In this document: positions 14,129 through 28,440 of the stretch, piece after piece
How the letters are laid out: each line of letters starts with the position of its first letter
How positions within the stretch are numbered: position 1 is the stretch's first letter
NCBI GenBank assembly: GCA_017540505.1
Contig: JAFYAW010000027.1
Location: forward strand, 1 to 34,648
Reading direction: 5' to 3'
From: Bacteroidales bacterium
GTDB lineage: Bacteria > Bacteroidota > Bacteroidia > Bacteroidales > WCHB1-69
DNA: 34,648 bases
Made by a program: the position numbers and the translations under genes
Notes under the pieces: generated by a model
The model's input: only the letters and a program-made list of their open reading frames with translations
The model's database searches: none
Told to the model about the DNA's origin: nothing

Positions 14129-15088
14129 ATGGGATTCTTTTCTATATTTTCAAAAGAGAAAAAACAGGAACTGGACGAAGGCCTCCAGAAATCCAAAGAG
14201 AGCTTTTTCGCCAAACTCGCCAAAACGGTGGTCGGCAAGTCCAAGGTGGACGACGATGTGCTGGACCGTCTGGAGGAGGTGCTGGTCACTTCCGATGTGG
14301 GTGTGGAGACCACGTTGCGCATCATCTCGCGCATTGAGAACCGTGTCTCCCGCGACAAGTACATCGGCACGGAGCAGCTCAATGTCATCCTGAAGGAGGA
14401 GATCGCCGGCCTGCTGTTGGAGAACGACATCGAGAAGGCCAATGATTTTGTAATCCCGAAGTTGGAAAGCCCGTACGTGGTGCTCGTGGTGGGCGTGAAC
14501 GGTGTGGGCAAAACCACCACCATCGGCAAGCTCGCCTACCAGTTCAAGAAAAAGGGCTATTCGGTCACGCTGGGTGCCGCCGACACCTTCCGCGCCGCCG
14601 CCATCGAACAGTTGGAGGCGTGGGCCAAACGCGCTGACGTGCCCATCATTACCCAGAAGATGGGTGCCGACCCGGCGGCGGTGGCCTACGACACCGTGGC
14701 GTCCGCCATCGCCCGCAAGAGCGATGTGGTCATCATCGATACGGCCGGTCGCCTGCACAACAAGACAAACCTGATGAACGAACTCATCAAGATCAAGAAC
14801 GTGATACGCAAGCTGGTGCCTGAAGGGCCGCATGAGGTGTTGCTGGTCCTCGACGGCTCCACCGGCCAGAACGCCTTTGAACAGGCCCGCCAGTTCTGCG
14901 CCGCCACGGAAGTCAATGCACTGGCCATCACCAAACTGGACGGCACTGCCAAGGGCGGCGTGGTCATCGGTATCTCCGACCAGTTCAAAATCCCCATCAA
15001 ATACATCGGCGTGGGCGAGAAGATCGACCAACTGCAGGTGTTCAACCGCGCCGAGTTTGTGGACTCCCTGTTCCCCGACAACTGGTAA
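14129..15088 (+). CDS. ftsY: Signal recognition particle receptor FtsY
   Basis: 319 residues, SRP-type GTPase receptor that brings ribosome-nascent chains to the Sec translocon. The NG domain is complete: four-helix N domain (about 20-110), G1 GVNGVGKTT (122-130), GAADTFRAAAIEQL (149-162), G3 DTAGR (204-208), G4 TKLD (268-271) and GVGEKIDQLQVFN near the end. The acidic A domain of Escherichia coli is absent, leaving a short MGFFSIFSKEKK start, as usual in Bacteroidota. The ATG at 14129 is chosen because the frame upstream to 13994 crosses the terminator and promoter. Confidence 0.95.
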   Translation: MGFFSIFSKEKKQELDEGLQKSKESFFAKLAKTVVGKSKVDDDVLDRLEEVLVTSDVGVETTLRIISRIENRVSRDKYIGTEQLNVILKEEIAGLLLENDIEKANDFVIPKLESPYVVLVVGVNGVGKTTTIGKLAYQFKKKGYSVTLGAADTFRAAAIEQLEAWAKRADVPIITQKMGADPAAVAYDTVASAIARKSDVVIIDTAGRLHNKTNLMNELIKIKNVIRKLVPEGPHEVLLVLDGSTGQNAFEQARQFCAATEVNALAITKLDGTAKGGVVIGISDQFKIPIKYIGVGEKIDQLQVFNRAEFVDSLFPDNW

Positions 15089-15123
15089 ACCACCATTTGA
15101 AAATACTTTAATATCCTGATACC

Positions 15124-15999
15124 TTGCAAGTTACTATCGACCACAATTCGGGATTCTGCTTCGGTGTGATTCATGCCATCCAAACGGCGGAGGAATACCT
15201 GTCGGAGCACGACACCCTCTATTGTCTGGGCGATATTGTACATAACAATGAGGAGGTGAAACGGCTCACAAACCTCGGCTTGCGGGTCATCCGCTATGAG
15301 CAGTTCCGCCAACTGCGCGACACCACGGTGCTGATTCGCGCCCACGGCGAGCCGCCGCAGACCTATCAGACGGCTAAGGAGAACAATATCACCCTCATAG
15401 ATGCCACTTGTCCGGTGGTGCTGAAACTGCAACAGCGCATCGCCGACTTCTATCGAAACCCTGAAAATGCGGATATACAAATTCTTATTTTCGGGAAGAA
15501 AGGCCATGCAGAGGTGGTGGGGCTGATGGGACAGGCCGACAACCGCGTAATCGTGATTTCTTCGTTAGAGGAAATTGACCGAATCGATTACCAGCGTCCG
15601 GCCATGCTCTATTCTCAGACGACACAAGGCCTTGAGCCGTATTATCAGCTAATTGGGCTGATCAAGGAACGCTATGAGGCCGTCGGACATGGCGACATGT
15701 TCCATTATGCTGACACGATTTGCCGGAAAGTGGCCAACCGTACGGATGAAATCGCCGCCTTCGCCCGTCAGCACGACGCTGTCCTCTTCGTGTCGGGTGA
15801 ACAGAGCTCCAACGGTCTCTATCTGTTCGACATCTGTAAAAAAAACAATCCAAACAGCTATATGGTTTCCCATGCCGGCCAGATTGGCGCCCTGAACTTG
15901 ACAGGCTACCAGTCGGTGGGCATCTGTGGTGCCACCTCCACGCCCATGTGGCTGATGGAGGAGTGTAAAAATTTGATTATCAATAAACAACAAAACAAT
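15124..15999 (+). CDS. ispH: 4-Hydroxy-3-methylbut-2-enyl diphosphate reductase (IspH), no stop before purH
   Basis: 292 codons, the last step of the MEP isoprenoid pathway. The three [4Fe-4S] ligands are in place: C12 (SGFCFGV), C96 (DATCPVV) and C200 (DTICRKV). AHGEPPQT and the end VGICGATSTPMWLMEE are family blocks, so the domain is complete. It starts with TTG at 15124; no in-frame ATG precedes the conserved start. No stop follows: the frame passes through an AT-rich stretch into the purH ATG at 16000, making an 803-codon frame 15124-17535. The linker looks like intergenic DNA and a TGA stands in the next frame, so a lost base, by mutation or assembly error, could explain it. Confidence 0.92.
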
Positions 16000-17535
16000 A
16001 TGAAAAGAGCCATTATCAGCGTAAGCGACAAAACCGGCATCGTACCTTTCGCCGCCGGACTTATAGAAGCAGGTTATGAGATCATCTCTACCGGCGGAAC
16101 AAAAAAGGCCCTGGATGCAGCAGGTCTTAAAACCATTGGAATCAGCGAGATAACTGGATTTCCGGAGATTATGGACGGACGTGTGAAAACCCTGCATCCG
16201 AAAGTGCATGGCGGCTTGTTAGCCATCCGTGATAATGAGAAACACCAACAGGAGATGAGCGAGAACGGCATTGAGCCCATCGACATGATTGTGGTGAATC
16301 TTTATCCGTTCAAACAAACCATTGAAAAGCCGGATGTTACGTACGAAGATGCCATTGAGAATATCGATATTGGCGGACCTACCATGCTGCGCAGTGCCGC
16401 CAAAAACCACAAATTCGTCACGGTGGTGGTGGATGCCGGCGATTACGACGCGGTGTTGGCGGAAATCAAGGAGCACGGCGACACCACGTTTGAGACGCGA
16501 CGTCGCTTGGCCGCCAAGGTCTTCCGGCATACAGCCTCCTACGACAGCTATATCTCCGCCTATCTCACAGAACAAGCCGGCGAGAAGGAGCCGGAGAGCC
16601 TAACGATGACCTTTACGCGCAAGCAGAGCCTGCGTTATGGCGAAAACCCTCATCAAGAAGCCACCTTTTATGCGGGGAAAAAGCAAGGCTATTCCATCGC
16701 TTGGGCCGAGCAATTGCATGGCAAGGAGTTGTCGTATAATAACATACAAGATGCGGATGCCACCTTGCAGATATTGAAGGAGTTCAACGAGCCGGCCATG
16801 GTGGCGGTGAAACACAAGAACCCCTGTGGAGTGGGTCTGGGTGCTAACGCGCTGGAAGCCTGGCAACGTGCCTACGAGGCAGACCCCGTTTCCATTTTCG
16901 GCGGCATCGTGGCCTCCAACCGTGAAATCGACCTGCCCACGGCGGAAGCCATGAAGCCGGTCTTCCTCGAAATCATCCTCGCCCCGAGCTTCACCCAAGA
17001 GGCCTTCGACCATCTTGCCACCAAGAAGAACATCCGTTTGATGACCTTCGACCCAAGCACGGAAAACGGCGATGATAAGATGTTCATCAGTGTGCGCGGC
17101 GGCATGTTGCAGCAGACTATTGACAACAAGTCCACGGAGGATTATGCGCTGAACGTTGTTACCGAGAAAAAGCCGACGGAGCAGGAATACGAAGACCTGT
17201 TTTTGGCGATGAAGATCTGCAAGCACGTACGTTCCAATGCGATAACGGTGGCCAAGGATGGCAAGATTGCCGGCATTGGGGCAGGACAGATGAACAGGGT
17301 AGGGGCCGCTCATATTGCCTTCGAGGAAGCCAAAGCCAAGGGTATCACTTCCGGACTTTGCCTGGCCTCCGACGCGTTCTTCCCCTTCGATGATGTGGTG
17401 AAGATGGCGGCCCAGTACGGCGTGACGGCTATCATCCAGCCCGGCGGCTCCGTCCGCGACGAGGATTCCATCAAGGCCTGCAACGAGTTAGGCATCGCGA
17501 TGGTGTTCACGGGAATTAGGCATTTTAAGCACTGA
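16000..17535 (+). CDS. purH: Bifunctional AICAR transformylase/IMP cyclohydrolase (PurH), in frame with ispH
   Basis: 511 residues from the ATG at 16000, matching the normal length and start MKRAIISVSDKTGIVPFA. PurH performs the last two steps of IMP synthesis. The N-terminal IMP cyclohydrolase part shows STGGTKKALDAAGL, DGRVKTLHPKVHGGLLA and DMIVVNLYPF. The transformylase part shows RYGENPHQEA, the catalytic Lys-His pair in AVKHKNPCGVG, and QPGGSVRDEDSI. The A-rich sequence before this ATG is a normal Bacteroidota initiation region, so separate initiation is possible even though the upstream ispH frame runs straight in. Whether the cell makes one fused protein, two proteins or both cannot be told from sequence. 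Confidence 0.93.
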   Translation: MKRAIISVSDKTGIVPFAAGLIEAGYEIISTGGTKKALDAAGLKTIGISEITGFPEIMDGRVKTLHPKVHGGLLAIRDNEKHQQEMSENGIEPIDMIVVNLYPFKQTIEKPDVTYEDAIENIDIGGPTMLRSAAKNHKFVTVVVDAGDYDAVLAEIKEHGDTTFETRRRLAAKVFRHTASYDSYISAYLTEQAGEKEPESLTMTFTRKQSLRYGENPHQEATFYAGKKQGYSIAWAEQLHGKELSYNNIQDADATLQILKEFNEPAMVAVKHKNPCGVGLGANALEAWQRAYEADPVSIFGGIVASNREIDLPTAEAMKPVFLEIILAPSFTQEAFDHLATKKNIRLMTFDPSTENGDDKMFISVRGGMLQQTIDNKSTEDYALNVVTEKKPTEQEYEDLFLAMKICKHVRSNAITVAKDGKIAGIGAGQMNRVGAAHIAFEEAKAKGITSGLCLASDAFFPFDDVVKMAAQYGVTAIIQPGGSVRDEDSIKACNELGIAMVFTGIRHFKH

Positions 17536-17539
17536 GATC

Positions 17540-17563
17540 GGCTGTTAGCCGTTAGCTATTAGG
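17540..17563. repeat. Left repeat flank of the four-helix-bundle gene
   Basis: GGCTGTTAGCCGTTAGCTATTAGG, a run of TTAGC-type units, starts 5 bp after the purH stop. GCTATTAG (17555-17562) is inverted as CTAATAGC at 18023-18030 and AGCTATTA also recurs directly at 17993-18000. Confidence 0.6.
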
Positions 17564-17912
17564 TTTTTAATGTGGATATTAACTTATTAAGCCTTTTTTC
17601 TATAATCAATAATCTAGCACAGATTTGTTTTAATTGGGTATCATCCAAATATTTCAAATTATAAGCTATGATTGTTTGTGTTTCTAATTCAAATGCAGAT
17701 CCAATGCTGATTTCTAAGAAATGGATAAATTCCCTGCTGGATGTTCTCGATGCCCCTTCTGCTATGTTGGCTGCAATTGATACTGCGGATCTCCTCATTT
17801 GATCTGACAAAGCATAGCGTTCGTATGTTGGAAAACCTTTTAAATAATTATAGATGTCTGTTACTAATGATATTGCGTCATTCCATACTCCATATTTCCT
17901 AAAATCCCTCAT
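17559..17912 (-). CDS. Four-helix-bundle protein of the S23/23S rRNA intervening-sequence type
   Basis: 117 residues with the family hallmarks DFRKYGVWNDAI, YALSDQMRRSAVSIAANIAEGASR, REFIHFLEISIGSAFELETQ and an amphipathic helical end. Relatives are encoded in intervening sequences of 23S rRNA genes and, in Bacteroidota and Cyanobacteria, as solitary genes between other genes; they form pentameric helical bundles of unknown function. Here it lies opposite to its neighbours purH and ung, in AT-rich DNA bounded by TTAGC-like repeats. The 3' end overlaps the left flank. This suggests a small inserted element rather than part of a local operon. Confidence 0.9.
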   Translation of the reverse strand: MRDFRKYGVWNDAISLVTDIYNYLKGFPTYERYALSDQMRRSAVSIAANIAEGASRTSSREFIHFLEISIGSAFELETQTIIAYNLKYLDDTQLKQICARLLIIEKRLNKLISTLKT

Positions 17913-17992
17913 GCTATCTTTTGTTTATTATATTCTAAATAACGATTGTTAATTAATGATATTGTTTGACTTATATAATTTTTTAATAAAAT

Positions 17993-18030
17993 AGCTATTA
18001 ACCAATGACAAAAGGCCAATGGCTAATAGC
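17993..18030. repeat. Right repeat flank of the four-helix-bundle gene
   Basis: AGCTATTAACCAATG (from 17993), then GGCCAATGGCTAATAGC ending at 18030, made of the same TTAGC/CCAATG words as the left flank. GCTATTA and TAATAGC inside it form an inverted pair. The end overlaps the open frame ahead of ung. Confidence 0.55.
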
Positions 18031-18066
18031 AATTTTAAATTCTCACCCTCCAAAACCCCAATCCCA

Positions 18067-18738
18067 ATGATAACCCCTCAAATTGAAAATTCCTGGAAGC
18101 AGGTGCTGTGGGATCAGTTCCAGGCCCCCTATTTCGCTGAGCTGAAGCGTTTTTTAATTGAAGAGAAACAGCATTACCGGGTGTTCCCGCCGGGCGGTTG
18201 TATCTTCAATGCGTTCAACAGCACGCCGTTCGACCAGGTGAAGGTCGTGATTATCGGGCAGGACCCATACCATGAGGTGGGGCAGGCGCATGGGTTGTGC
18301 TTTTCCGTGCAGGACGGGGTCCCATTCCCCAAGTCGCTGATTAACATATTCAAGGAGTTGAGTGACGATGTGGGCTTTGTTACGCCACGGAGCGGCAACT
18401 TGCAGAAATGGACGCAGCAGGGCGTGTTGTTGCTCAATGCCACGCTCACGGTGCGTGAGCACGCGGCGGGCTCGCATCAGGGACATGGCTGGGAGACCTT
18501 CACCGATTGCGCCATCCAGCGGCTTTCGGAGCAGAGGGAGGGGATAGTGTTCCTCTTATGGGGCAACTATGCCATCAACAAGCGCGCCCTCATCGACACA
18601 AGCAAGCATTATGTGCTTACTGCCGCGCATCCGTCGCCGCTATCGGCTTTCCGTGGTTTCTTCGGGTGCAAGCATTTTTCCAAGACCAACCAGTTGTTGA
18701 TGCAGATGGGCAAAACGCCGATTGATTGGCAGTTGTAA
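18067..18738 (+). CDS. ung: Uracil-DNA glycosylase, family 1
   Basis: 223 residues, normal length. It removes uracil from DNA to start base excision repair. The water-activating motif GQDPYH is at 64-69 with catalytic D66, GLCFSV follows, LLLNATLTV is at 121-129, and the DNA-intercalation motif HPSPLS is at 188-193. The frame is open from an ATG at 18019, but those 16 codons lie in the repeat flank and are not family-like; MITPQIENSWKQVL is the usual start. It converges on the large helicase gene with only 15 bp between the two stops, and no terminator hairpin was seen there. Confidence 0.95.
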   Translation: MITPQIENSWKQVLWDQFQAPYFAELKRFLIEEKQHYRVFPPGGCIFNAFNSTPFDQVKVVIIGQDPYHEVGQAHGLCFSVQDGVPFPKSLINIFKELSDDVGFVTPRSGNLQKWTQQGVLLLNATLTVREHAAGSHQGHGWETFTDCAIQRLSEQREGIVFLLWGNYAINKRALIDTSKHYVLTAAHPSPLSAFRGFFGCKHFSKTNQLLMQMGKTPIDWQL

Positions 18739-18753
18739 AAATAAAGAGTCAGA

Positions 18754-21700
18754 TTAGTTAGAAGATAATTTCTGCAATACCAAATCAGGAAGGATAACAG
18801 CACTCTCTTCACTGTCATCTTTACCTTTCCAAGCCAATATGCAGCTTATTCTTGCAGCAGTTATATGATAACCTTTCTCGTTCCAACTTTCGATTTCCTT
18901 ACGTTTGTCTTTGGATAATAAGACTACTCTATTACCGGAAGAGGTTCTCAGGCAACCCTCGTCATAATAGAGTGTAGTACCACCTTTAAGTTGGAAAATA
19001 AAATTTTTTTTATCCTTGAAAAAATTCAAGTTCACATCGTGCATGGATAGTTGCAATACAATGCTATCTGGTTCGGGGTATTGTTCCATGTCATAGTGGT
19101 ATGTGATATTATTTCCTTTTAGTGATTTGAAAATCGGGGTATTACAATGAATGAACAAGTTCTGTTTGGCGCGTGTGATGCCTACATATAGTTTTCGGAT
19201 TTCCTCTACCTTATCCGTTTCTTGATGATTCAAAAGCAAATAAACTGTATCGAACTCCCGACCTTTTGATTTGTGAATGGTGGATACAAAAATGGTGGTG
19301 TCGTCCTCTCCGCAGAAATCTTCCAATTTTGACTCAAACAAGAATTCATTAAGATCACTACGGTATTTGGATTTGTTTGTTTTCTCAAAAGCGGTGAAGA
19401 AATTTTTGACGTATTCCAGACAGGAGCTCTCTTTGTATTTTTCAATCGTTTGTTGCTTTGCTTCGTTCCAAAGATCGTCACTGATAATGGATGATACAAT
19501 CTTCTTGTCAATTTTTCTCAGGAAATATCGGATTTCCATCATATTGTAGAAGCGGAAGCCATCAGCTGATTGGATTAATCGTGCGCGTAGGCCCATCTTG
19601 TTCAGAAGTCCTGTTGCTTGCGCAGCCTCATCGTTAGTAGTAGTGAGCAAACATGCTATTTCTCCCTGATAGGTGGCTTTAATGTCGCGGCACACGGGGA
19701 AGAGTAGATTATCGCAGAGATATTCAGTTATTCTCACATTCCCAGATTCTTGGCTAACTGCTGAACAAGCGTGTGTTTTCATTCGATTAGGAAGTCTTTT
19801 CACGAATGCTTCCGCAAAGGAGACAATCGCTTGTCTGCTACGGTAATTTTCTGTCAGTTCATATTTCACAGCATCAAATTCGTCAATCAGCATCCGCATG
19901 TATTTAGCATCGGAGCCGCGGAAACTATAGATGTTTTGGTCATCATCGCCAACGGCAATGACACGCATTTCTTCATTCTGTTTCATTAAAGCCTTGACGA
20001 AGGCATACTCGTGGGCATCCATATCCTGAGCTTCATCAATCACCAAAACGGTTTTGCTGATTCGGCTGGGTTCCACTTGTCCGCTTTCAATCATCTGTGT
20101 GGCACGTATAACAACATCTTCGGAATCTTCCAGTGAACCGTTTTCGCCGAGTAGGTCAAAACTGTAGGAGTGGAATGTCTTGATTTCCACATAATAGGCA
20201 ATGTTGCCGATGAGTTCTATCAAACGTTGTTTGAACTCTGTGGCGGCGGCACGAGAGAATGTCAGCATAAGGAGTTGTTCGTGTTTTACATCTTCCAATA
20301 ATAGCAGAGATGCTAGTTTGTGAACCAACACGCGAGTCTTTCCGCTTCCTGGGCCAGCAGCTACCACAATGTGCTTGGATATTTTATCTGTAATGATTGT
20401 CCGCTGTATTTCAGATAATTTTCCAAAAAGTTGGCGGTATTTTTCAGGGGTAATGTTTTTCTCAATCTCTTTAGCCCGCTCTCCTTTGAAATAAGTGGCG
20501 ACGAATTTGTTGTGATCCATCTGGAAATAGTCCCGTACGTATTTCAAAGCCGCCTCATAATCCCGCACCATCAGGTTTGCATATTCCCCCACGATGTGTA
20601 TTTGTCTGATTTTCTGTTTGTAAAACTCATCCAGCATCCGATAATCCTCAACCTTGTAGCGGTATTTTATGTCGGATATGCGGCGAATTTGCATGGCGTT
20701 GTAAATTACCAAAAAACCTCCTTCCAATTTTAACGCTCCGATTTTGGACAAATAGAGTAGGGCATCCTCCATGTCCTTCATTTGTAAGCCTTGATTTTGT
20801 GCAAACAGATTCCGTTGAGATTGTGTCGAATAGTTTTTTAGCATTTCCGTTAATGAAAATGAAATGGGACAGTCGGATGCGGATAGGGTTTGCTGTTGTT
20901 TGATTTTGAACAGTTCTCCAATAATGTATTTGCATATGTCAATGCGAATCCCTTGTTTCTTTTGAAGTTGTTCAATATCATGCTTTATTGTCACTTGCAC
21001 GCTGTTCCCACGGATGTATTCCTTTTTGATGATGAGGGATTTCATCGACAGAAAATTCAGTATCGTGCGAATGTCTTTAACGGTGGAGTGGATGCCCTGT
21101 TCGTTGGCTTGCTCGTTTAATGTCTTATAGGTGATTTCTTTTTCGCTTTCCGAGAATGTCTCGGTCAGATATTGCTCTAATCGCGCAAATTTGTTAACGA
21201 TGTTCCATGATTTGCGTTCGTTGTCTGTAGTATGAAGGTATGCGGACATGTCGTGGGTGTCCGCCAGAATCCCATCTTGGCGCATAAGGTTCACCGCATT
21301 GATTACAGCCGCTTTGCTCATACCAAGAATATCAGCCAAATAATCCACGCGAGATTCAGCATCCTCCCCATCAGCTTGGGTTGATTTGGATGTGTTCTTG
21401 TTGGAAATCAGAGACTTGATTATCCGTATGGCATTTTGGCGGTCATTGTTGTCAAAGAGTTTGGAGTTTTCAATGCGTTGTCGTGCCTCGTCCATATTCT
21501 TCACGGTAATTCCGGTGGCGAAGACGTGAGGCACATTATTCCCTCGGGTTATGTATCCAGCTTGTTCAAGGGCTGAGATGGCCGTGCGCACGCGCGTTTC
21601 AATGTCTGGGACATCGTCGTTCCATCCCGCTTGCCGCGCAATCTCTAAAGCAGAGCATTGTACGGTCTTGAACTGTCTTGTGAGGTCTTTCACCGCTTTC

Positions 21701-23589
21701 CATACTTGCTGTATTTCACTGATGCTCAGTTTTGTTTGATTCAAAAGGATGAAGTGCTTATCTAAGTCATGGTCGCTGTATAGCACATAGCATTTGGCCT
21801 GCATCTCAGGGTCACGTCCTGCACGTCCTGCCTCCTGAACATAGTTTTCTAAGGAATCGGATATGTCGTAGTGGATTACCATGCCCACGTCTTTCTTGTC
21901 CACACCCATGCCGAAAGCGGAAGTGGCCACCATGATTTGTGCTTCGTTGTTGATGAATGCATTCTGATTGTGTACCTTGTCGTTTGCATCCATTTTACCA
22001 TTGAATGGAAGGGCCGAGTATCCGTCCCGTGTCAGTTTTTGCGCCAGTTCGATTGTTTTTTTTGTGCGCGCGACATAGATGATAGTGGGTTTTGGATTGC
22101 CAATCAGAAGATTCCGCATAAAATTGTATTTCTCGTCTTCGGTGTCCGCATGGATTACTGCATATTTTAGGTTTTGGCGGTCGGCAGTAGAGGCGAATAA
22201 TCGCAAGTCAATATCCAGCTTCCGCTTGAAATAGTCGCAAATGTCAGAAATCACCTTCTGTTTGGCTGTGGCAGTGAAACAGGAAACCGGAATAGGGGCA
22301 GTCAGATGTTTTTTCTCCTGTAGCTGCTTGATGAAATCCCCGATGTATAGGTAATCCACACGGAAATCCTGTCCCCAAGAGGAAAAGCAGTGCGCTTCAT
22401 CAATGACAAATCGTACCACATTACGGGATAAAAGGAGCTTCTCAATGGTTTTGGAGCGCAGCATTTCCGGTGAGATATATAGTAATGTGGCGCGACCATC
22501 GGCTACGCGTTCAAAAGCGTCAGCCCTTGAAATGGGATCCAAGAGTCCATTGATGGTGACGGCTTCTGTAAAGCCCTTTTCCGACAGGTTGTCCACCTGA
22601 TCCTTCATCAATGATTGTAAAGGGGAAATGACAACGGTGAGACCATGTACCGCTCTGCCCGACATGATGGCAGGAAGCTGGAAAGTGAGCGACTTTCCAC
22701 CGCCGGTTGGGAAAACCGTCAGCAGCGATTCCCCATCAATGGCCGCTTGCACGGCCCGCTCTTGCATCGGCTCACCGTCAAATGTCCGGAATTCTGTATA
22801 ACCAAAAGTCTCTTCTAATCCCTTGCGAATATTGAGCTTGTCATCGCAAAACAGACAGCTTGGATCATGGCACGGAGTGCTGCAAAGTTTCCGCATGATA
22901 TATTCAATGGCGGGGAAGTTGTGTAGTAGCCAAGGTGGTGTTACTGATTTGTTGTCGTCAGTGTTGATAAGGGCTAATGCGTATGCCAGTTCTATTGGTT
23001 GTTGTTGAATGAAAGTGGAGAGATTAGCGTTTTTGCAGATTCTTCCGTCAAAAAAGGAAAGAATAAGATTTTTGATGTCATTTTTTTCAGGAATCTTTTC
23101 TACATAATCGAAAAAGTCTTTAAATTCCTTGGATGAGTGGAGTAAATGAATATAAATTTGTTGGAGCTCACAAGGAAGATTATAAAAGGCGTCTATTTCA
23201 GCATTGAAAAGATCCCGTGCTTTCTTGCAGTCATTCAACGGGTTGTTGAGTTCCTCTGTTTGTAACTTGTCGTCTTTAAGTAGTTTGTGATAAGGACGTT
23301 TGGGAAAAAGAAGAGGCGACAAATATAGAGTGTCGATCTTTTTCTTTTTGTTTAGGGAGTTTTTTGACAATAACTTCAGGTCATGATGGATGATGTTGTG
23401 ACCACAAAGGTATTCTGCTCCGCTAACAAAATCAAGGAAATCGGATTGGGAGGATTGGTGAAACTCCTTGCCGGAAATTGTCAAGGCACCATAATCATGT
23501 ATCTTTTTGCCATTTGAGTCGGCCTCAATGTCAATAAAGGCAATCTTGTAAGGGGTAGTCCGATTCAGCAATTTAAAAGGAAGTGCCAT
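18754..23589 (-). CDS. DEDD exonuclease-like + RecQ-like SF2 helicase + UvrD-like SF1 helicase fusion
   Basis: 1611 residues with three enzyme-like parts. (1) Residues 15-130: DnaQ-like fold with FIDIEAD (D20, E22), GHNIIHHD (D70) and NPLNDCKKA (D120); the usual exonuclease-III histidine appears to be asparagine. A Cys cluster C-x3-C-x4-C-x2-C follows at 236-248. (2) 270-620: RecQ core with PTGGGKS (294-300), DEAH (397-400), SAFGMGVD and QEAGRAGRD (585-593). The RecQ zinc motif is not seen after it; winged-helix-like segments fill about 640-960. (3) 1055-1485: UvrD/Rep core with AAGPGSGKT (1077-1085), DEAQD (1185-1189), GDDDQNIYSFRG (1214-1225), STIHKSKGREFD (1436-1447) and VGITRAKQ (1469-1476). 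The last 110 residues are unassigned. Repair or defence is an inference. Confidence 0.9.
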   Translation of the reverse strand: MALPFKLLNRTTPYKIAFIDIEADSNGKKIHDYGALTISGKEFHQSSQSDFLDFVSGAEYLCGHNIIHHDLKLLSKNSLNKKKKIDTLYLSPLLFPKRPYHKLLKDDKLQTEELNNPLNDCKKARDLFNAEIDAFYNLPCELQQIYIHLLHSSKEFKDFFDYVEKIPEKNDIKNLILSFFDGRICKNANLSTFIQQQPIELAYALALINTDDNKSVTPPWLLHNFPAIEYIMRKLCSTPCHDPSCLFCDDKLNIRKGLEETFGYTEFRTFDGEPMQERAVQAAIDGESLLTVFPTGGGKSLTFQLPAIMSGRAVHGLTVVISPLQSLMKDQVDNLSEKGFTEAVTINGLLDPISRADAFERVADGRATLLYISPEMLRSKTIEKLLLSRNVVRFVIDEAHCFSSWGQDFRVDYLYIGDFIKQLQEKKHLTAPIPVSCFTATAKQKVISDICDYFKRKLDIDLRLFASTADRQNLKYAVIHADTEDEKYNFMRNLLIGNPKPTIIYVARTKKTIELAQKLTRDGYSALPFNGKMDANDKVHNQNAFINNEAQIMVATSAFGMGVDKKDVGMVIHYDISDSLENYVQEAGRAGRDPEMQAKCYVLYSDHDLDKHFILLNQTKLSISEIQQVWKAVKDLTRQFKTVQCSALEIARQAGWNDDVPDIETRVRTAISALEQAGYITRGNNVPHVFATGITVKNMDEARQRIENSKLFDNNDRQNAIRIIKSLISNKNTSKSTQADGEDAESRVDYLADILGMSKAAVINAVNLMRQDGILADTHDMSAYLHTTDNERKSWNIVNKFARLEQYLTETFSESEKEITYKTLNEQANEQGIHSTVKDIRTILNFLSMKSLIIKKEYIRGNSVQVTIKHDIEQLQKKQGIRIDICKYIIGELFKIKQQQTLSASDCPISFSLTEMLKNYSTQSQRNLFAQNQGLQMKDMEDALLYLSKIGALKLEGGFLVIYNAMQIRRISDIKYRYKVEDYRMLDEFYKQKIRQIHIVGEYANLMVRDYEAALKYVRDYFQMDHNKFVATYFKGERAKEIEKNITPEKYRQLFGKLSEIQRTIITDKISKHIVVAAGPGSGKTRVLVHKLASLLLLEDVKHEQLLMLTFSRAAATEFKQRLIELIGNIAYYVEIKTFHSYSFDLLGENGSLEDSEDVVIRATQMIESGQVEPSRISKTVLVIDEAQDMDAHEYAFVKALMKQNEEMRVIAVGDDDQNIYSFRGSDAKYMRMLIDEFDAVKYELTENYRSRQAIVSFAEAFVKRLPNRMKTHACSAVSQESGNVRITEYLCDNLLFPVCRDIKATYQGEIACLLTTTNDEAAQATGLLNKMGLRARLIQSADGFRFYNMMEIRYFLRKIDKKIVSSIISDDLWNEAKQQTIEKYKESSCLEYVKNFFTAFEKTNKSKYRSDLNEFLFESKLEDFCGEDDTTIFVSTIHKSKGREFDTVYLLLNHQETDKVEEIRKLYVGITRAKQNLFIHCNTPIFKSLKGNNITYHYDMEQYPEPDSIVLQLSMHDVNLNFFKDKKNFIFQLKGGTTLYYDEGCLRTSSGNRVVLLSKDKRKEIESWNEKGYHITAARISCILAWKGKDDSEESAVILPDLVLQKLSSN

Positions 23590-23610
23590 TGTTTTTTACA
23601 AAACTCGGCG

Positions 23611-23618
23611 CAAAAATA
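23611..23618 (-). promoter_or_regulatory. -7 element TATTTTTG of the triple-domain helicase gene
   Basis: On the minus strand TATTTTTGCGCC, the same 12 bases as before ddh, obg and rpmG, 21 bp ahead of the ATG at 23589. The gene can therefore be transcribed on its own despite lying 65 bp after the propeller gene. Confidence 0.7.
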
Positions 23619-23654
23619 GCATTTTTATGGGAATTAATAGCCAATCAGGATATT

Positions 23655-25727
23655 TTACCACTCCCAGTTGTCTTTTGGGTGCGTGAGGTACCGTAGGCAT
23701 TTCAGCAGTACGTCAAGGTCGGTGAAGTTGTGGTGGGTCAGCATGTTTTGCGGCATGGCTTCGCCAAGGAACCGTAGAAACGGGATGTGCGTGCATGGCA
23801 GGATGAGGTCATCTGTCCGCAGTTTTATCGGCATCATAAAAGAATGCTCCCCGAAGCCGCAGGACGCGTCTTCTCCGCTGATAGTCAGCACGTCTCCGTT
23901 TTGGTTGGTGATTCGCGCTATGAAAGTTTCACGTGTGGTGCAGCCATCATGAAAACCGGTGGTCATAATGTATCGGATGAGCGAATCGCTGAAGTGTGAG
24001 ACGGTGTCTTTCAGCCGATAGATGTCCTTGAGTTCGGCGTACTTGAAAAGATACTCCCACGGGTACCTTTTGTAAAGGCTCCTTACCGAATCGTAATCGG
24101 ATTGTGTAAACGAGAACATCCCCATTGTAATGGCTGTGTCGTAGTGCAGGTTGAGGTCGCGGAGAAACGATTCCAATTCCTCTGCCCGGAAAATGTGCTC
24201 AATAGCTACGGTGTCCTCATGGATGATGGCACTCGTTGCTCTGAAAATATCGTTGTTTCGGATATAGCTGATGGAATCTTCCCAGAAATGGAAGCAGCCT
24301 CTGGTGAATGGGGTGATGGTGACTCTGACGATGGGATAGCGCAAGAAATTCTCCAGAGGTCGTTCTATACGGAACGGTTGCAGCGTTGGATTGTGCTCGC
24401 TTATCAAGTAAAACTGCTTGCTATCGCTGACGACAACCTGTTGTGTGTCTGGATGTTGTATGTCGCGATATGGGAACATGAATTGAATGTCAAATGGTAC
24501 GGTCGTCACCCTGTACCACTGTTGTTTGTCCCTGTCGAAATGGAGAATGTCACGATTCTCCCAACCCCACGGATATTTTTCCGATTTCACAAGGTCATCG
24601 ATATCTTCTTTTTCGTAGTTATACCAGTCCGATTGGGCGCTTGCCCTGCGCCACGGAGCTTTAATCGGATGGTTGTCGCTGAAGAATCCCATACGGATAC
24701 AAGAGTCATCGGAGAAATGACAAAAATAGTGGTCGGTGGCTGTTTTGATGTTGCCGTATAATTGTCCATTACTGACGCAAAGTCCGTAAAGAACATCCCC
24801 ATGCGAATGATAAACCGTGTCAAAATGTTGTAGATCAGTGGTTTTTAAAATTTTTCTTTCTGTAATATTGTTGTTCTCTGTTGTGGCAAAAAGAATACCC
24901 TTTTCGATATCGGTAGGTCTGGGGGAAATACTGGAAGGGAGGCGTTTCCAACGGATTTTGTCGCGGGAAGAATAGAAGTTTTCTCCATTTTGGCCTACTA
25001 TGATCCACTCCTTGAAAAGGAATGCGACAGAACACCATAATGATCGCTTATTTGTCGTGTTGATATTAACCAAATGCTGTTTTTGGGGTGTGGGCAGTTT
25101 ACGATAAGTGGTCCAATTGTCTTCTGTATAGTAGAGTTCGTCAGCGTAGCAACCTGCCACGCCAGTGCGCCCGTCCTTGTCCATGCTGATGTCGGCGATT
25201 ATATGTGGGAAATGGTTGAGCTTGGTGAAGGTCAATCCCTTGTCTGCGGAGAAATAAAGGCTATCACCCGCAATCCAGACCTCACCCGACGGTGCGCAAT
25301 ATGTACTGTTGATCTCCTCTTTGTTGGAGGCAAACGTTCTGGACTCCCAAGTCTTGCCCCGGTCGTTCGAGTACCAATAGGCATTATGGATATGTTTGCT
25401 TTTGAAGGGATTGTATATTTTACCGAATACCAACACCGTATTGCTGTCCGGACAAATCACGTATTTGTATTCCCCGCCGCCATCGTAATGGCTGCTGCCG
25501 GGATGGCCCTTGCCGATGGAGTTCACCTGGTGCCATGGCGAGTGGGTGTCTTCCGCATGATAAAGAATCCCTTTTAGATTTTCGGTGCACCAGAGATCGC
25601 CGCCCGGTGCCACCGTCACGTCCATCCCCCAAGGGGAGATTCGTTCGCGGAAGTCCTTCTCCTGTTGCGCGGATACCGCAAGAACCAACGTGAATATGAG
25701 GGTGCAAAACAGGATTCGTCTATTCAT
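23655..25727 (-). CDS. Secreted Asp-box/BNR propeller protein of unknown function
   Basis: 690 residues. A signal peptide ends near VLAVSA-QQ (20/21). Asp-box turns are visible at SNDRGKTW (120-127) and SADKGLTF (160-167), with a weaker one at TEDNWTTY (201-208); these mark a beta-propeller as in sialidase-like or Ycf48-like proteins, but no sialidase active-site set was recognised. The second half, rich in Trp, Tyr and Asp, is not recognised. No CHU_C or type A sorting domain is present at the C-terminus, so periplasmic or outer-membrane-associated location is more likely than T9SS export. It follows the QKDRWG-repeat gene by 39 bp on the same strand. Confidence 0.8.
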   Translation of the reverse strand: MNRRILFCTLIFTLVLAVSAQQEKDFRERISPWGMDVTVAPGGDLWCTENLKGILYHAEDTHSPWHQVNSIGKGHPGSSHYDGGGEYKYVICPDSNTVLVFGKIYNPFKSKHIHNAYWYSNDRGKTWESRTFASNKEEINSTYCAPSGEVWIAGDSLYFSADKGLTFTKLNHFPHIIADISMDKDGRTGVAGCYADELYYTEDNWTTYRKLPTPQKQHLVNINTTNKRSLWCSVAFLFKEWIIVGQNGENFYSSRDKIRWKRLPSSISPRPTDIEKGILFATTENNNITERKILKTTDLQHFDTVYHSHGDVLYGLCVSNGQLYGNIKTATDHYFCHFSDDSCIRMGFFSDNHPIKAPWRRASAQSDWYNYEKEDIDDLVKSEKYPWGWENRDILHFDRDKQQWYRVTTVPFDIQFMFPYRDIQHPDTQQVVVSDSKQFYLISEHNPTLQPFRIERPLENFLRYPIVRVTITPFTRGCFHFWEDSISYIRNNDIFRATSAIIHEDTVAIEHIFRAEELESFLRDLNLHYDTAITMGMFSFTQSDYDSVRSLYKRYPWEYLFKYAELKDIYRLKDTVSHFSDSLIRYIMTTGFHDGCTTRETFIARITNQNGDVLTISGEDASCGFGEHSFMMPIKLRTDDLILPCTHIPFLRFLGEAMPQNMLTHHNFTDLDVLLKCLRYLTHPKDNWEW

Positions 25728-25766
25728 TTGGGCAAAGGTTCTGAAGGTTATTAAAAAACACAGTGC

Positions 25767-26201
25767 TCACATCAGTATCACACTCGCCAGCTGCCAGCGG
25801 TCGGGGATGAAGTCGAAGTAATAGACGGGTGCGCCCCAGCGGTCCTTCTGGCGCAAGGTGGTGCCGTCGAGGTAGTAGAGGGCCACACCCCAGCGGTCCT
25901 TCTGGCGGATGGTCTGCCCGTCAAAATAGAGCAGGGGAGCGCCCCAGCGGTCTTTCTGCCGCACCGTCGGACCGTCCATGTAAAGCAGCGGCTGTCCCCA
26001 ACGGTCTTTCTGTCGCACCTGTTGCGTCGCCGCATCGTACCATAGTAGCTGCAGTCCCCAACGGTCCTTTTGGCGGATAGTGTTCTCCTCCATGTAATAG
26101 AGCTTCGCCCCCCATCTGTCTTTCTGATAGACGGTTTGCGCCCGGCCCGCTGGTGCGAGGAACGTTATGATGGCAAACAGGAAAACAATTCGTTTTTTCA
26201 T
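25767..26201 (-). CDS. Secreted QKDRWG-repeat protein, possible beta-flower fold
   Basis: 144 residues: a signal peptide (about 1-21), then six QKDRWG motifs at 26-31, 44-49, 64-69, 82-87, 100-105 and 118-123, spaced 18, 20, 18, 18 and 18 residues, and a tail FIPDRWQLASVILM. Each unit reads roughly T-x-R-QKDRWG-x-P-L-L-Y-x-D-G, that is, two short strands and a turn. The layout (short exported Bacteroidota protein, near-identical repeats with a DG turn, closing W-containing tail) resembles what is annotated as the '5-fold beta-flower' family, but the motif differs and one more unit is present. No enzyme motif is seen; function is unknown. The propeller gene follows 39 bp downstream. Confidence 0.8.
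   Translation of the reverse strand: MKKRIVFLFAIITFLAPAGRAQTVYQKDRWGAKLYYMEENTIRQKDRWGLQLLWYDAATQQVRQKDRWGQPLLYMDGPTVRQKDRWGAPLLYFDGQTIRQKDRWGVALYYLDGTTLRQKDRWGAPVYYFDFIPDRWQLASVILM
25818..26126 (-). repeat. 54-bp tandem coding repeats of the QKDRWG protein
   Basis: Six copies of a 54-bp unit (one extended by 6 bp). The QKDRWG codons are nearly identical from copy to copy (CAGAAAGACCGNTGGGG-type), while the intervening codons vary. The arrangement allows copy-number change by recombination or slippage. Confidence 0.7.
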
Positions 26202-26206
26202 ATCGG

Positions 26207-26214
26207 CAAAAATA
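26207..26214 (-). promoter_or_regulatory. -7-like element TATTTTTG directly before the QKDRWG-repeat gene
   Basis: On the minus strand TATTTTTGCCGAT leads straight into the ATG at 26201, leaving only 5 bases between element and start codon. If used, transcription would begin at or near the start codon, giving an almost leaderless mRNA. Confidence 0.4.
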
Positions 26215-26284
26215 CAAATATTTTCTGTTTGTTCAAGATGTATAAATGGCTGAAAATAATGCGTTAAGGCTTATGGTGTGTTTT

Positions 26285-26779
26285 TTACAACAACCGCATT
26301 GCAATCCTTGCGCAAGCCTCCGCGTCGGCCAACGCGTGGTGGTGGTTGGTCATCGGACAGCCACAGGCCGCGGCCACGGTGTGCAGCTGGTGGTTGGGCA
26401 GTCGTCTCCCGAAGTGGCTGCGCGAGGCACGGCAGGTGCAGAGAAATTGATAATCAGGATAGTCCATCTGATAGACGCGGAATACGGCCTTAAGGCAGCC
26501 TTCGTCAAAAGGACTGTTGTGCGCCACCAAAGGCAGTCCTTCAATCAGCGGCTCGATTTGCCGCCACACGACGGGGAACACGGGTGCGTTGTCGGTGTCC
26601 TCGTGCGAGAGACCGTGTACCTGCTGGCAGAACCAGGCGTAGTAGTCGGGCTCGGGTTTGATGAGCGAGTAGAAAGTGTCGGTGATGACACCGCCGCGCA
26701 CCACCACCACACCCACGCTGCACACGCTGCTGCGCTGCCCGTTGGCTGTCTCGAAATCTATGGCTGCAAAGTCGGTCAT
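26285..26779 (-). CDS. DnaQ-like DEDDh 3'-5' exonuclease
   Basis: 164 residues, a stand-alone DEDDh exonuclease domain: exo I AAIDFET with D8 and E10, exo II LVAHNSPFDEGCL with D92, and exo III NHHHALADAEACA with the catalytic histidine near 147 and D152. All four acidic residues and the histidine are present. Family members act as proofreading epsilon-like subunits or RNase T-like trimming enzymes; the short form without other domains leaves the substrate open. It is a separate gene, with a TACCTTTG -7 element 43 bp upstream. In contrast to the exonuclease-like part of the large helicase, its motif III is intact. Confidence 0.92.
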   Translation of the reverse strand: MTDFAAIDFETANGQRSSVCSVGVVVVRGGVITDTFYSLIKPEPDYYAWFCQQVHGLSHEDTDNAPVFPVVWRQIEPLIEGLPLVAHNSPFDEGCLKAVFRVYQMDYPDYQFLCTCRASRSHFGRRLPNHQLHTVAAACGCPMTNHHHALADAEACARIAMRLL

Positions 26780-26822
26780 ATCAAGTGCTTATATAAAAGA
26801 TGGCAGTTTGGTAACAAGGCTG

Positions 26823-26830
26823 CAAAGGTA
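26823..26830 (-). promoter_or_regulatory. -7 element TACCTTTG of the exonuclease gene
   Basis: Minus-strand TACCTTTGC, matching TAnnTTTG, 43 bp ahead of the ATG at 26779. Confidence 0.6.
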
Positions 26831-26901
26831 TAATAATTTTGGTTGCAATAGTAGCGTGCGGGTGTGCGGGTTTACGGCATAGTCTGATTTTGGGTTTTCG
26901 C

Positions 26902-26935
26902 AAAAAAAAAGCCGCACCAGAATAGGTGCGGCTTT
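26902..26935 (-). terminator. Rho-independent terminator of hsp20
   Basis: A perfect 11-bp stem (26908-26918 with 26925-26935, core GCCGCACC/GGTGCGGC) with a 6-base loop, followed on the minus strand by nine T. It begins 26 bp after the hsp20 stop. Confidence 0.9.
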
Positions 26936-26960
26936 AGATCACGAATCTTGGTTTGGAAGA

Positions 26961-27386
26961 TTACCCGATGGTGATGGTGCGGGCGAGCTTGGGCTCCTCC
27001 TTCTGCACTCTCGGCAGGGTGATGGTGAGGATTCCGTGCTCCACCTTGGCTTCGATGTGGTCCTTGTCAACGTCCTCAGGCAGCGTGTAGTTCTGCTCGT
27101 AGTTCGTGTAGGAGAACTCGCGGCGCAGGTAGTGGTGCTTTTTCTCCTCTTCCTTGTGTTCCATCTTGTTCTCGATGGCGACGCAGAGGTTTCCGTCGTC
27201 GTTGATGCTCACGCGGCAGAACTCCTTCTTGATGCCGGGGGCGGCCACTTCCATCGTGTAGGCCTTTTCGTCTTCTCTGACGTTCACAGCCGGAGCTGTG
27301 GCGTTGTTGCGCGGCATGATGTCGCTGTTCAGGAAATCTTCAAACATGGTCGGAAACCAATTGTTTTTAAACATTACAGGTAGCAT
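26961..27386 (-). CDS. Small heat shock protein, Hsp20/alpha-crystallin family
   Basis: 141 residues. An ATP-independent holdase that keeps unfolding proteins soluble. The N-terminal arm MLPVMFKNNWFPTMFEDF precedes an alpha-crystallin domain (about 33-130: PAVNVREDEKAYTMEVAAPGIKKEF, and the conserved GILTITLPR block). An I-x-I oligomerisation motif (TITIG) ends the protein. The ATG at 27386 is preferred over the longer frame to 27488 because the extra residues are basic low-complexity and lie in the leader. A clear Shine-Dalgarno sequence, AAAGGAG, stands 6 bases before this ATG, unusual in Bacteroidota. No TAnnTTTG element was found; a different sigma factor is possible. Confidence 0.93.
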   Translation of the reverse strand: MLPVMFKNNWFPTMFEDFLNSDIMPRNNATAPAVNVREDEKAYTMEVAAPGIKKEFCRVSINDDGNLCVAIENKMEHKEEEKKHHYLRREFSYTNYEQNYTLPEDVDKDHIEAKVEHGILTITLPRVQKEEPKLARTITIG

Positions 27387-27519
27387 GATTAACTCCTTTC
27401 TTTTATGGTTAGACTTTAAATTTTTTCGTTTCTGTCCGCCTCCGCTCTCGCATCGGCGACGCATACCATAGTGCAAGGTGTGTGCCAACCCGTTTTCCGT
27501 GCCGTTTTTCCGCAGAAAT

Positions 27520-27564
27520 GGACAAATTGTCCGCTTTTGTGACAGTATGGCGGGGTTTGTGACA
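27520..27564. promoter_or_regulatory. Possible operator: GGACAA-A-TTGTCC dyad and two TTTGTGACA direct repeats
   Basis: Upstream of hsp20 a perfect 6+1+6 dyad (27520-27532) is followed by TTTGTGACA at 27536-27544 and 27556-27564, exactly 20 bp apart (two helical turns). Such spacing is typical of regulator sites, but no regulator is known and it lies about 135-180 bp before the hsp20 start. Confidence 0.3.
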
Positions 27565-27570
27565 ATTTTT

Positions 27571-27790
27571 CTACCGAGCTTATGTCCCTATCGGGACAAG
27601 GTTCTGCCCCTAATCGGGGCATGGGGAAGCCGATCGCGCTGTCCTACCGAGCTTTGACCCCTGCCGGGGTCTTGTGGCAGCCGAAACGGCAATGTCCTAC
27701 CGAGCTTTTGTCCCTGTCGGGACATTGCGATGCATGTTACGAGTAGGGGACATCGGTACGATTCCCGAATAGCCCCGGCAGGGACGGCAC
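27571..27790. repeat. Array of CTACCGAGCTT palindromic repeats
   Basis: The 577-bp gap between hsp20 and the lipoprotein gene holds three copies of CTACCGAGCTT followed by a hairpin: 27571-27598 (GTCCC/GGGAC), 27644-27671 (GACCCC/GGGGTC) and 27697-27724 (GTCCC/GGGAC). A further GCCCC-TAATC-GGGGC hairpin lies at 27606-27620, and a degenerate inverted copy (TCGGTA, GCCCCGGCAGGGAC) at about 27753-27785. Copy 2 carries paired changes in both stem arms, which supports selection on, or copying of, the hairpin. No coding capacity is seen here. Confidence 0.75.
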
Positions 27791-27929
27791 AATAATTCGC
27801 ACAATTCGTATGATTCGCCGAAAAATTCGTATGCTTCTATTGCGTTTTAAAATGATGTTTAGTGTATATTGTTGATATTTAGTGGATTATAAAATTTGGT
27901 TGGGGGTGAATTGTATATAGGGAAAAATG

Positions 27930-27937
27930 TATTTTTG
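27930..27937 (+). promoter_or_regulatory. -7 element TATTTTTG of the lipoprotein gene
   Basis: TATTTTTGTCAC, 26 bp ahead of the ATG at 27964, in AT-rich DNA after the palindromic array. Confidence 0.65.
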
Positions 27938-27963
27938 TCACTCGAATTTTAAAATACTGGTAT

Positions 27964-28440
27964 ATGAAGAAAATATGTTTCTCAATCTTTTGCCTGATGG
28001 GGCTGTTTGCGATGTTGTTCACCTCCTGCCACTATGATCCGTGGGTGGAAGATCAATATTATTTCAAAAATGGTCTGGCGGAGCCGATTAAATTCCTGAA
28101 ATTGGATATTGACGACCATGTATATGATACGATAACGATAAATCCGGGCGAAAGCGTTTTCGTGTATTTTGCCAATGGAAGAGACCATTCTTATTTCAGC
28201 CAAAACATGAAATGGTCTGGTTTTATGATGGGTAATCACTATTGCATCCTGTATTCGGATGGAATTAAGGCATATTATCAAAGTGAATATCAAGGTGAAA
28301 TCGACGGCAAGTCTCCAGCCCTGAAGCAGTTTTGGAACATTTTGGAGAACACCAGCAAGAAGCACCGTGACGAATATGTGGTGGAATACACGGTGGACGA
28401 GGCTGATTATCAGTTCGCGGTGGAGTTGGGGGCGGAATAG
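27964..28440 (+). CDS. Small lipoprotein of unknown function
   Basis: 158 residues. A type II signal peptide with lipobox LFTSC gives lipidated C22, and the mature protein begins CHYDPWVEDQYYF. The remainder (INPGESVFVYFANGRDHSYF, GDEYVVEYT-like end) appears to be a small beta-rich domain; I do not recognise a family. It stands alone between two palindromic-repeat regions, with its own -7 element. A possible decayed relative lies just downstream (28577-28681). Confidence 0.8.
   Translation: MKKICFSIFCLMGLFAMLFTSCHYDPWVEDQYYFKNGLAEPIKFLKLDIDDHVYDTITINPGESVFVYFANGRDHSYFSQNMKWSGFMMGNHYCILYSDGIKAYYQSEYQGEIDGKSPALKQFWNILENTSKKHRDEYVVEYTVDEADYQFAVELGAE

Follow-up and report, generated by a model that had tools for sequence, protein, structure and literature searches.

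The sequence analysed here, called the window, is a stretch of 34,648 bp that forms contig 41 of a 2.5-Mb genome. One of its genes encodes a large protein that opens with a DnaQ-like DEDD domain and a four-cysteine site; a RecQ-type motor and a reduced UvrD-type motor follow, with a middle region between them, and a C-terminal domain closes the chain (Table 1). The earlier note on this DNA had claimed a single 1611-codon frame with two different motors in one chain; the frame is indeed open from an ATG at 23589, on the minus strand (which that note had omitted), and the RecQ-type and UvrD-type cores were both recovered by profile models. The surroundings hold several smaller curiosities. A minus-strand gene beside ung (17559-17912) encodes a 23S rRNA intervening-sequence-type four-helix protein (PF05635, E 2.4e-34; weak bAvd match), and a plus-strand frame of 803 codons at 15124-17535 joins two unrelated enzymes, LytB (IspH) at 3-283 and MGS + AICARFT/IMPCHase (PurH) at 305-734; an 803-codon frame is likewise present there in the near relative G018. 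Upstream of the large gene, at a distance of 2.7 kb, a small RNase_T-type 3'-5' exonuclease gene (26285-26779, minus strand) is hidden beneath a longer spurious frame of the opposite strand, and similar frames of 166-196 codons occur in several relatives. A small protein of repeated QKDRWG units (25767-26201, minus strand) and its 690-codon neighbour make up a variable stretch; in the genome G035 the QKDRWG gene adjoins ung and the 690-codon gene is absent.

Table 1 Features of the large gene and its upstream region in the window
Feature	Positions	Strand	Basis
Whole gene, 1611 codons	18754..23589	minus	Open frame; relatives share the architecture
Upstream stretch that comes and goes with the gene; possible promoter	23590..23652	minus	Empty-site comparison, boundary sequences
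DnaQ-like DEDD domain, about residues 14-180, end approximate	23050..23550	minus	Alignment of 36 members; hhalign
Four-cysteine site C185, C240, C245, C248	22846..23037	minus	All four in 32 of 36 members; presumed zinc
RecQ-type motor, residues 256-655	21625..22824	minus	TIGR01389, TIGR00614, PF00270, PF00271
Middle region, residues 656-1055	20425..21624	minus	Length nearly constant among relatives; weak winged-helix matches
UvrD-type motor, residues 1059-1481, with short 1B and 2B stretches	19147..20415	minus	PF00580, PF13361; spacing compared with the genome's own PcrA
C-terminal domain, residues 1486-1607	18769..19134	minus	Conserved in the alignment

The window protein was aligned with 35 relatives from the source genus, other Bacteroidota, and plasmids of Bacteroides, Phocaeicola, Aliarcobacter, Alpha- and Gammaproteobacteria and Cyanobacteriota, to give an alignment of 36 members. 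These relatives had been selected as frames of more than 1300 codons, so the domain order shared by the 36 is partly a matter of choice. For an independent test of the fusion, the N-terminal domain of a Thiothrix member was searched alone against 72,556 plasmid records. The domain was found in 22 records, all of which were also matched by the full protein, and no free-standing version was seen among them. In 21 of them the match to the window protein ran from residue 61 or before to residue 1251 or beyond (one of these, from Nostoc ATCC 53789, is split by a transposase), and in the remaining record it was traced to residue 1003. The earlier note had named two separate genes, or a misjoin, as what would speak against its reading, and we found broken or split copies on contig 99 of the genome G013 and on the Nostoc plasmid, with nothing that supported a chimera. 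Because the same fused architecture stands on circular plasmids of four phyla, and also in independent genomes, we rejected an assembly chimera of two genes and regard its probability as negligible. The exonuclease-like/RecQ/UvrD protein thus belongs to a real, widespread but patchy family. Broken second copies were seen in two places: on the Nostoc ATCC 53789 plasmid (NZ_CP046704.1) a transposase lies between the pieces, and on contig 99 of G013 (L055) the copy is in two frames.

The N-terminal domain was assigned by its conserved motifs and one profile comparison. All four DEDD acids (D20, E22, D70 and D120), around which the earlier note had suggested a check, are kept in 36/36 members, as are H64, N65, D86, K105 and P117, and H101 is kept in 35/36. 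The position of the DEDDh histidine, five residues before the last Asp (N115 in the window protein), is Asn in 34 members and Ser in two, which bears out the claim that the third motif has lost its catalytic histidine. The position of the DEDDy tyrosine, four residues before the last Asp, is Asn in 28/36 and Asp in 8/36, never Tyr. Pfam gave no convincing match to the DnaQ-like domain in the window protein and the 36 members; the sole exonuclease model in that search was DNA_pol_B_exo1, in one of the 36 at E 0.057. When hhalign was run against an alignment of RNase_T proteins of related genomes, without a negative control, the probability was 94.4 (P 8.5e-8) over 93 columns that cover motifs I and II. 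A PDB profile search gave weak matches only: at E 0.011, over motif II and the DTL motif, it picked up proteins named exodeoxyribonuclease III, and a DEDDh chain came in at E 0.48. On these grounds the domain is taken as DnaQ-like, with its metal ligands intact and its general base altered. Further members with the domain lie on contigs labelled viral, and 12 of these 13 keep the four acids, while one (L088) has Cys at D120; since the usual His is gone and L088 is without the D120 acid, nuclease activity may be absent in some members.

Between this domain and the first motor the earlier note had seen a cysteine cluster at 236-248. Three of its cysteines (C240, C245 and C248) are conserved, together with the more distant C185, but C236 is Cys in only 7/36 members and so does not belong to the conserved set. 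In the four members without the full site, C185, C240 and C245 are all missing, and one of them still has an aligned Cys at 248. These members (one from Campylobacterota, three from Cyanobacteriota) fall on two separate branches of the tree. Such joint loss suggests that the four cysteines form one metal site, presumably for zinc.

The RecQ-type core scored 273 bits with TIGR00614, above the cut-off of 219.8, and 314 bits with TIGR01389 (E 1.4e-93), below the cut-off of 640. It keeps motifs I, II, III, V and VI and the aromatic loop, and its active-site residues K299, D397, E398, R589 and R592 are present in 36/36 members. As had been claimed, the RecQ zinc site is missing: the Cys pattern of the zinc module is absent here and is seen in the source genome's two ordinary RecQs. 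No HRDC domain appeared among Pfam matches at E up to 1. The stretch from 615 to 1055, which contains the middle region, spans 414-446 residues across 25 measured members.

The UvrD-type core exceeded the Pfam cut-offs of PF00580 and PF13361, but with TIGR01073 it reached 126 bits against a cut-off of 911 and so does not qualify as a full-length UvrD/PcrA/Rep equivalog. Superfamily 1A motor motifs are present, and K1084, D1185 and E1186 are kept in 36/36 members. Two stretches, which we take to hold the subdomains called 1B and 2B, are short: they measure 47 and 189 residues, compared with 138 and 289 in the genome's own PcrA-like helicase. The domain behind it gave no convincing Pfam or PDB match; a HIRAN-like fold had been suspected there by eye, and neither database supported it.

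The earlier note took the pairing of the two motors as a hint of coordinated unwinding of both strands. A RecBCD-like pair requires motors of opposite polarity, and membership in superfamily 1 or 2 makes no difference of direction, so this reading is unsupported. UvrD helicase is given as 3'-5' in PMC7140857, and a RecQ-like helicase is reported as 3'-5' in a title cited within PMC5512222. A RecBCD-like machine, each motor on its own strand of the duplex, would fit a chain that combines two complete motors with a nuclease-like domain, but both motors belong to 3'-5' families, and we give such a machine hardly any credence.

The gene was found in 19/36 genomes of the source genus (in G017 and G026 in pieces only), in 3/24 genomes from other families of the order, and in 15/395 genomes of a phylum sample, the source genome included (E up to 1e-120). 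The named protein relatives come from Bacteroidales genomes, including those from water-buffalo rumen and goat abomasum. The source genome encodes two further RecQs, one above the RecQ cut-off, and a PcrA-like helicase; this helicase and the other RecQ fall short of their equivalog cut-offs. This distribution bears on the possibility that the protein repairs stalled or broken forks as an accessory chromosomal enzyme, kept by some strains and laid out like WRN. The RecQ and UvrD families work in repair, and an exonuclease followed by RecQ is the WRN layout, with WRN structures among the matches of the core; yet roughly half of the genus and the bulk of the phylum do without the gene, and the cell has a PcrA-like helicase and two other RecQs besides, so that we consider such a repair role unlikely. 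In a FastTree tree of 60 members the proteins grouped mostly by family, and the copies of the genus need three changes, all of which are forced by well-supported branches. The run warned of long branches and paralogues, so the tree only suggests horizontal transfer.

More direct evidence of movement came from comparison of loci. In the near relative G019, whose flanks match the window at 89% (15000-18739) and 85% (23653-28000), the site is empty: 39 bp stand there against 4913 bp in the window, made up of the gene flanked by 63 bp on its upstream and 14 bp on its downstream side. The adjacency to ung described in the earlier note is real (the ung stop lies at 18738), yet G019 keeps ung, at 95% protein identity, without the exonuclease-RecQ-UvrD gene. 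In G035 the gene and the 690-codon neighbour are both missing from this site, and a copy of the gene lies elsewhere. We then compared 22 loci pairwise, of which 14 pairs had gene DNA at least 79% identical. Eight of these pairs had no matching flank of at least 100 bp, their match ending at the stop codon and extending 0-166 bp upstream, and the other six had some flank in common. The flank compared was 1.7 to 9.6 kb per locus and the pairs overlap in members (L048 in three, L018 in three), so the eight gene-only pairs are not eight independent events. The gene thus moves between genomes on its own, as a single-gene unit. At the upstream boundary, within homology common to distant loci, a TA..TTTG-like element, possibly part of a promoter, was present in the loci read; the upstream homology fits the claim that the gene has its own promoter, though this is plausible only.

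Plasmid copies raise a different possibility. Some of the plasmid carriers are typed as conjugative or mobilizable, and several plasmid copies lie amid insertion sequences or partition genes (ParA/ParB) or replication genes. Others, by record annotation, neighbour a type I system with HNH, HipA genes or Cas6. On a Scytonema plasmid the gene adjoins a DISARM-like set of genes, for a helicase, a protein with an MZB domain and a phospholipase D protein. Among the 80 loci kept on contigs labelled viral, 14 match the protein over nearly its full length or in its N-terminal part, and on seven such contigs integrase and ParB families are among the neighbours. Among the 25 families listed of the 191 PHROG families for 111 neighbours on these seven contigs, none was structural, so phage carriage is not shown. 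In 50,697 phage records no match to the N-terminal domain was seen, and none to the full protein at 80% cover. The protein might therefore be a helper of mobile elements, that is, a protein for repair, replication restart or transfer that is borne by a plasmid or island and protects the integrity of that element's DNA in new hosts; its chromosomal copies would be remnants or captures. The plasmid copies beside partition genes keep this reading viable, and the loci on viral-labelled contigs favour it as well, but within the genus the gene is exchanged without any flanking element gene and has been swapped with a restriction-modification pair, and we consider a helper role rather unlikely, though a serious contender. 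Matches to part of the Thiothrix gene, covering 1-2% of it, were also found in 54/5426 E. coli genomes; at the two loci examined, the proteins are 700-aa RecQ-like helicases beside DprA, of a different family. In one of these genomes (strain 2/0; L206, 11560-15077) a PsyrTA-like RecQ-like helicase and DprA lie within a type I restriction-modification operon, between S and R.

The swap was found between gyrB and a gene judged by eye to be lipoprotein-like. This locus holds a Fic protein and the exonuclease-RecQ-UvrD gene in G027, the same gene without Fic in G021, and in G002 Fic and, in place of the large gene, a type III Mod and a ResIII protein. The Mod matched Mbo45V (6.4e-59) and EcoP15I Mod (8.1e-43), and the ResIII protein scored above the Pfam cut-off, with no PDB match. 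About 79 bp of the large gene's 3' end, 84% identical, are retained in G002. Replacement by a type III restriction-modification pair was seen at this one locus only.

To follow up the suggestion that homologues might sit in defence islands, 133 neighbours of 20 chromosomal copies were searched with PADLOC and Pfam alongside 130 control proteins. Genes were called as the longest non-overlapping frames, which misplaced at least one window gene (the exonuclease at 26285-26779); 134 neighbours were called, a 1163-aa neighbour in L068 was left out, and close relatives repeat some neighbours. Among the 25 families listed, the neighbours included Orf5, HEC-06, mad3, SoFic, SspE, a type I system, GmrSD (3) and Fic (2), and the controls, again among 25 families listed, a type I system, AbiEi/ii and a type II methyltransferase. 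Defence families were mildly more frequent near the copies, but the control also holds defence genes, so enrichment around the copies is weak and only mildly above control. The window's own tested neighbours resemble ordinary genes.

Taken at its word, the earlier proposal of an attack on foreign DNA gains from gene-only exchange and, at one locus, from the type III replacement, but not from the weak defence enrichment. Because of the patchy spread, the redundancy with host helicases, the gene-only exchange and the swap, a defence role is the one we favour: the reading that we hold likeliest, and to which we give about an even chance, is that the protein is a stand-alone helicase-nuclease, traded as a single-gene unit, that damages or clears invading DNA (phage or plasmid). 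A more specific form, somewhat short of even, is a one-gene immune system: a single chain with a DEDD nuclease that has lost its His, a metal site and two 3'-5' motors from different superfamilies would recognise invading or branched DNA without partners, the gene being traded with its upstream region. The biochemical steps, the target and the defensive role are all things we infer. The RecQ-type motor would engage the invading DNA where it is branched or single-stranded and open it 3'-5', while the winged-helix-rich middle might hold the junction. The reduced UvrD-type motor, likewise 3'-5', could then act on the same strand or strip bound proteins, and the DEDD domain, with its metal ligands intact and Asn for the usual His, may trim exposed 3' ends.

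Several known proteins share parts of this design. Plasmid proteins recorded as 'RecQ family ATP-dependent DNA helicase' (about 1540-1750 aa; examples from Bacteroides finegoldii, Aliarcobacter cibarius and Cereibacter) belong to the same family over their full length, at 28-57% identity, and their records give the name only. Human WRN, a DEDDy exonuclease with RecQ, likewise has a nuclease-like domain before the RecQ core, and the core here matches its structures, but the protein described here lacks the DEDDy Tyr and any HRDC match; WRN is not known to have a UvrD motor. SaDinG, the Staphylococcus aureus exonuclease-DinG (PMC12345164), also has a DnaQ-like 3'-5' exonuclease before a superfamily 2 helicase, but this helicase is of DinG type, works 5'-3' and is a single motor. 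The PsyrTA-like and RqlH proteins bring a RecQ-like core in islands, and two E. coli members are 30-32% identical to ours over the core; they differ in being about 700 aa long, beside DprA, and in lacking the nuclease and UvrD parts. A UvrD-like motor is also shared with Gabija GajB and other UvrD-like helicases of defence systems, and PADLOC GajB models match it; GajB, however, works alongside GajA, a separate nuclease, and is not known to have a RecQ motor. No named PADLOC system covered the whole protein; the best 25 of 60 models each cover one helicase part (DpdF, PsyrT, GajB and others). In searches of the open-access PMC literature we recognised no paper describing the exonuclease-RecQ-UvrD architecture. 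Each domain is known in kind, and in the literature searched two complete motors of different superfamilies behind a nuclease-like domain lack an assigned function.

A family that is real and widespread yet patchy, with a gene that moves by itself, makes a good candidate for a defence against invading DNA that has yet to be characterised. With the empty site, the exchange of the gene alone and the restriction-modification swap, what was a curious annotation has become a directly testable candidate. As a defence system, should it prove to be one, it would be of the large single-protein kind, and it would reveal what two motors of the same direction are for in one chain.
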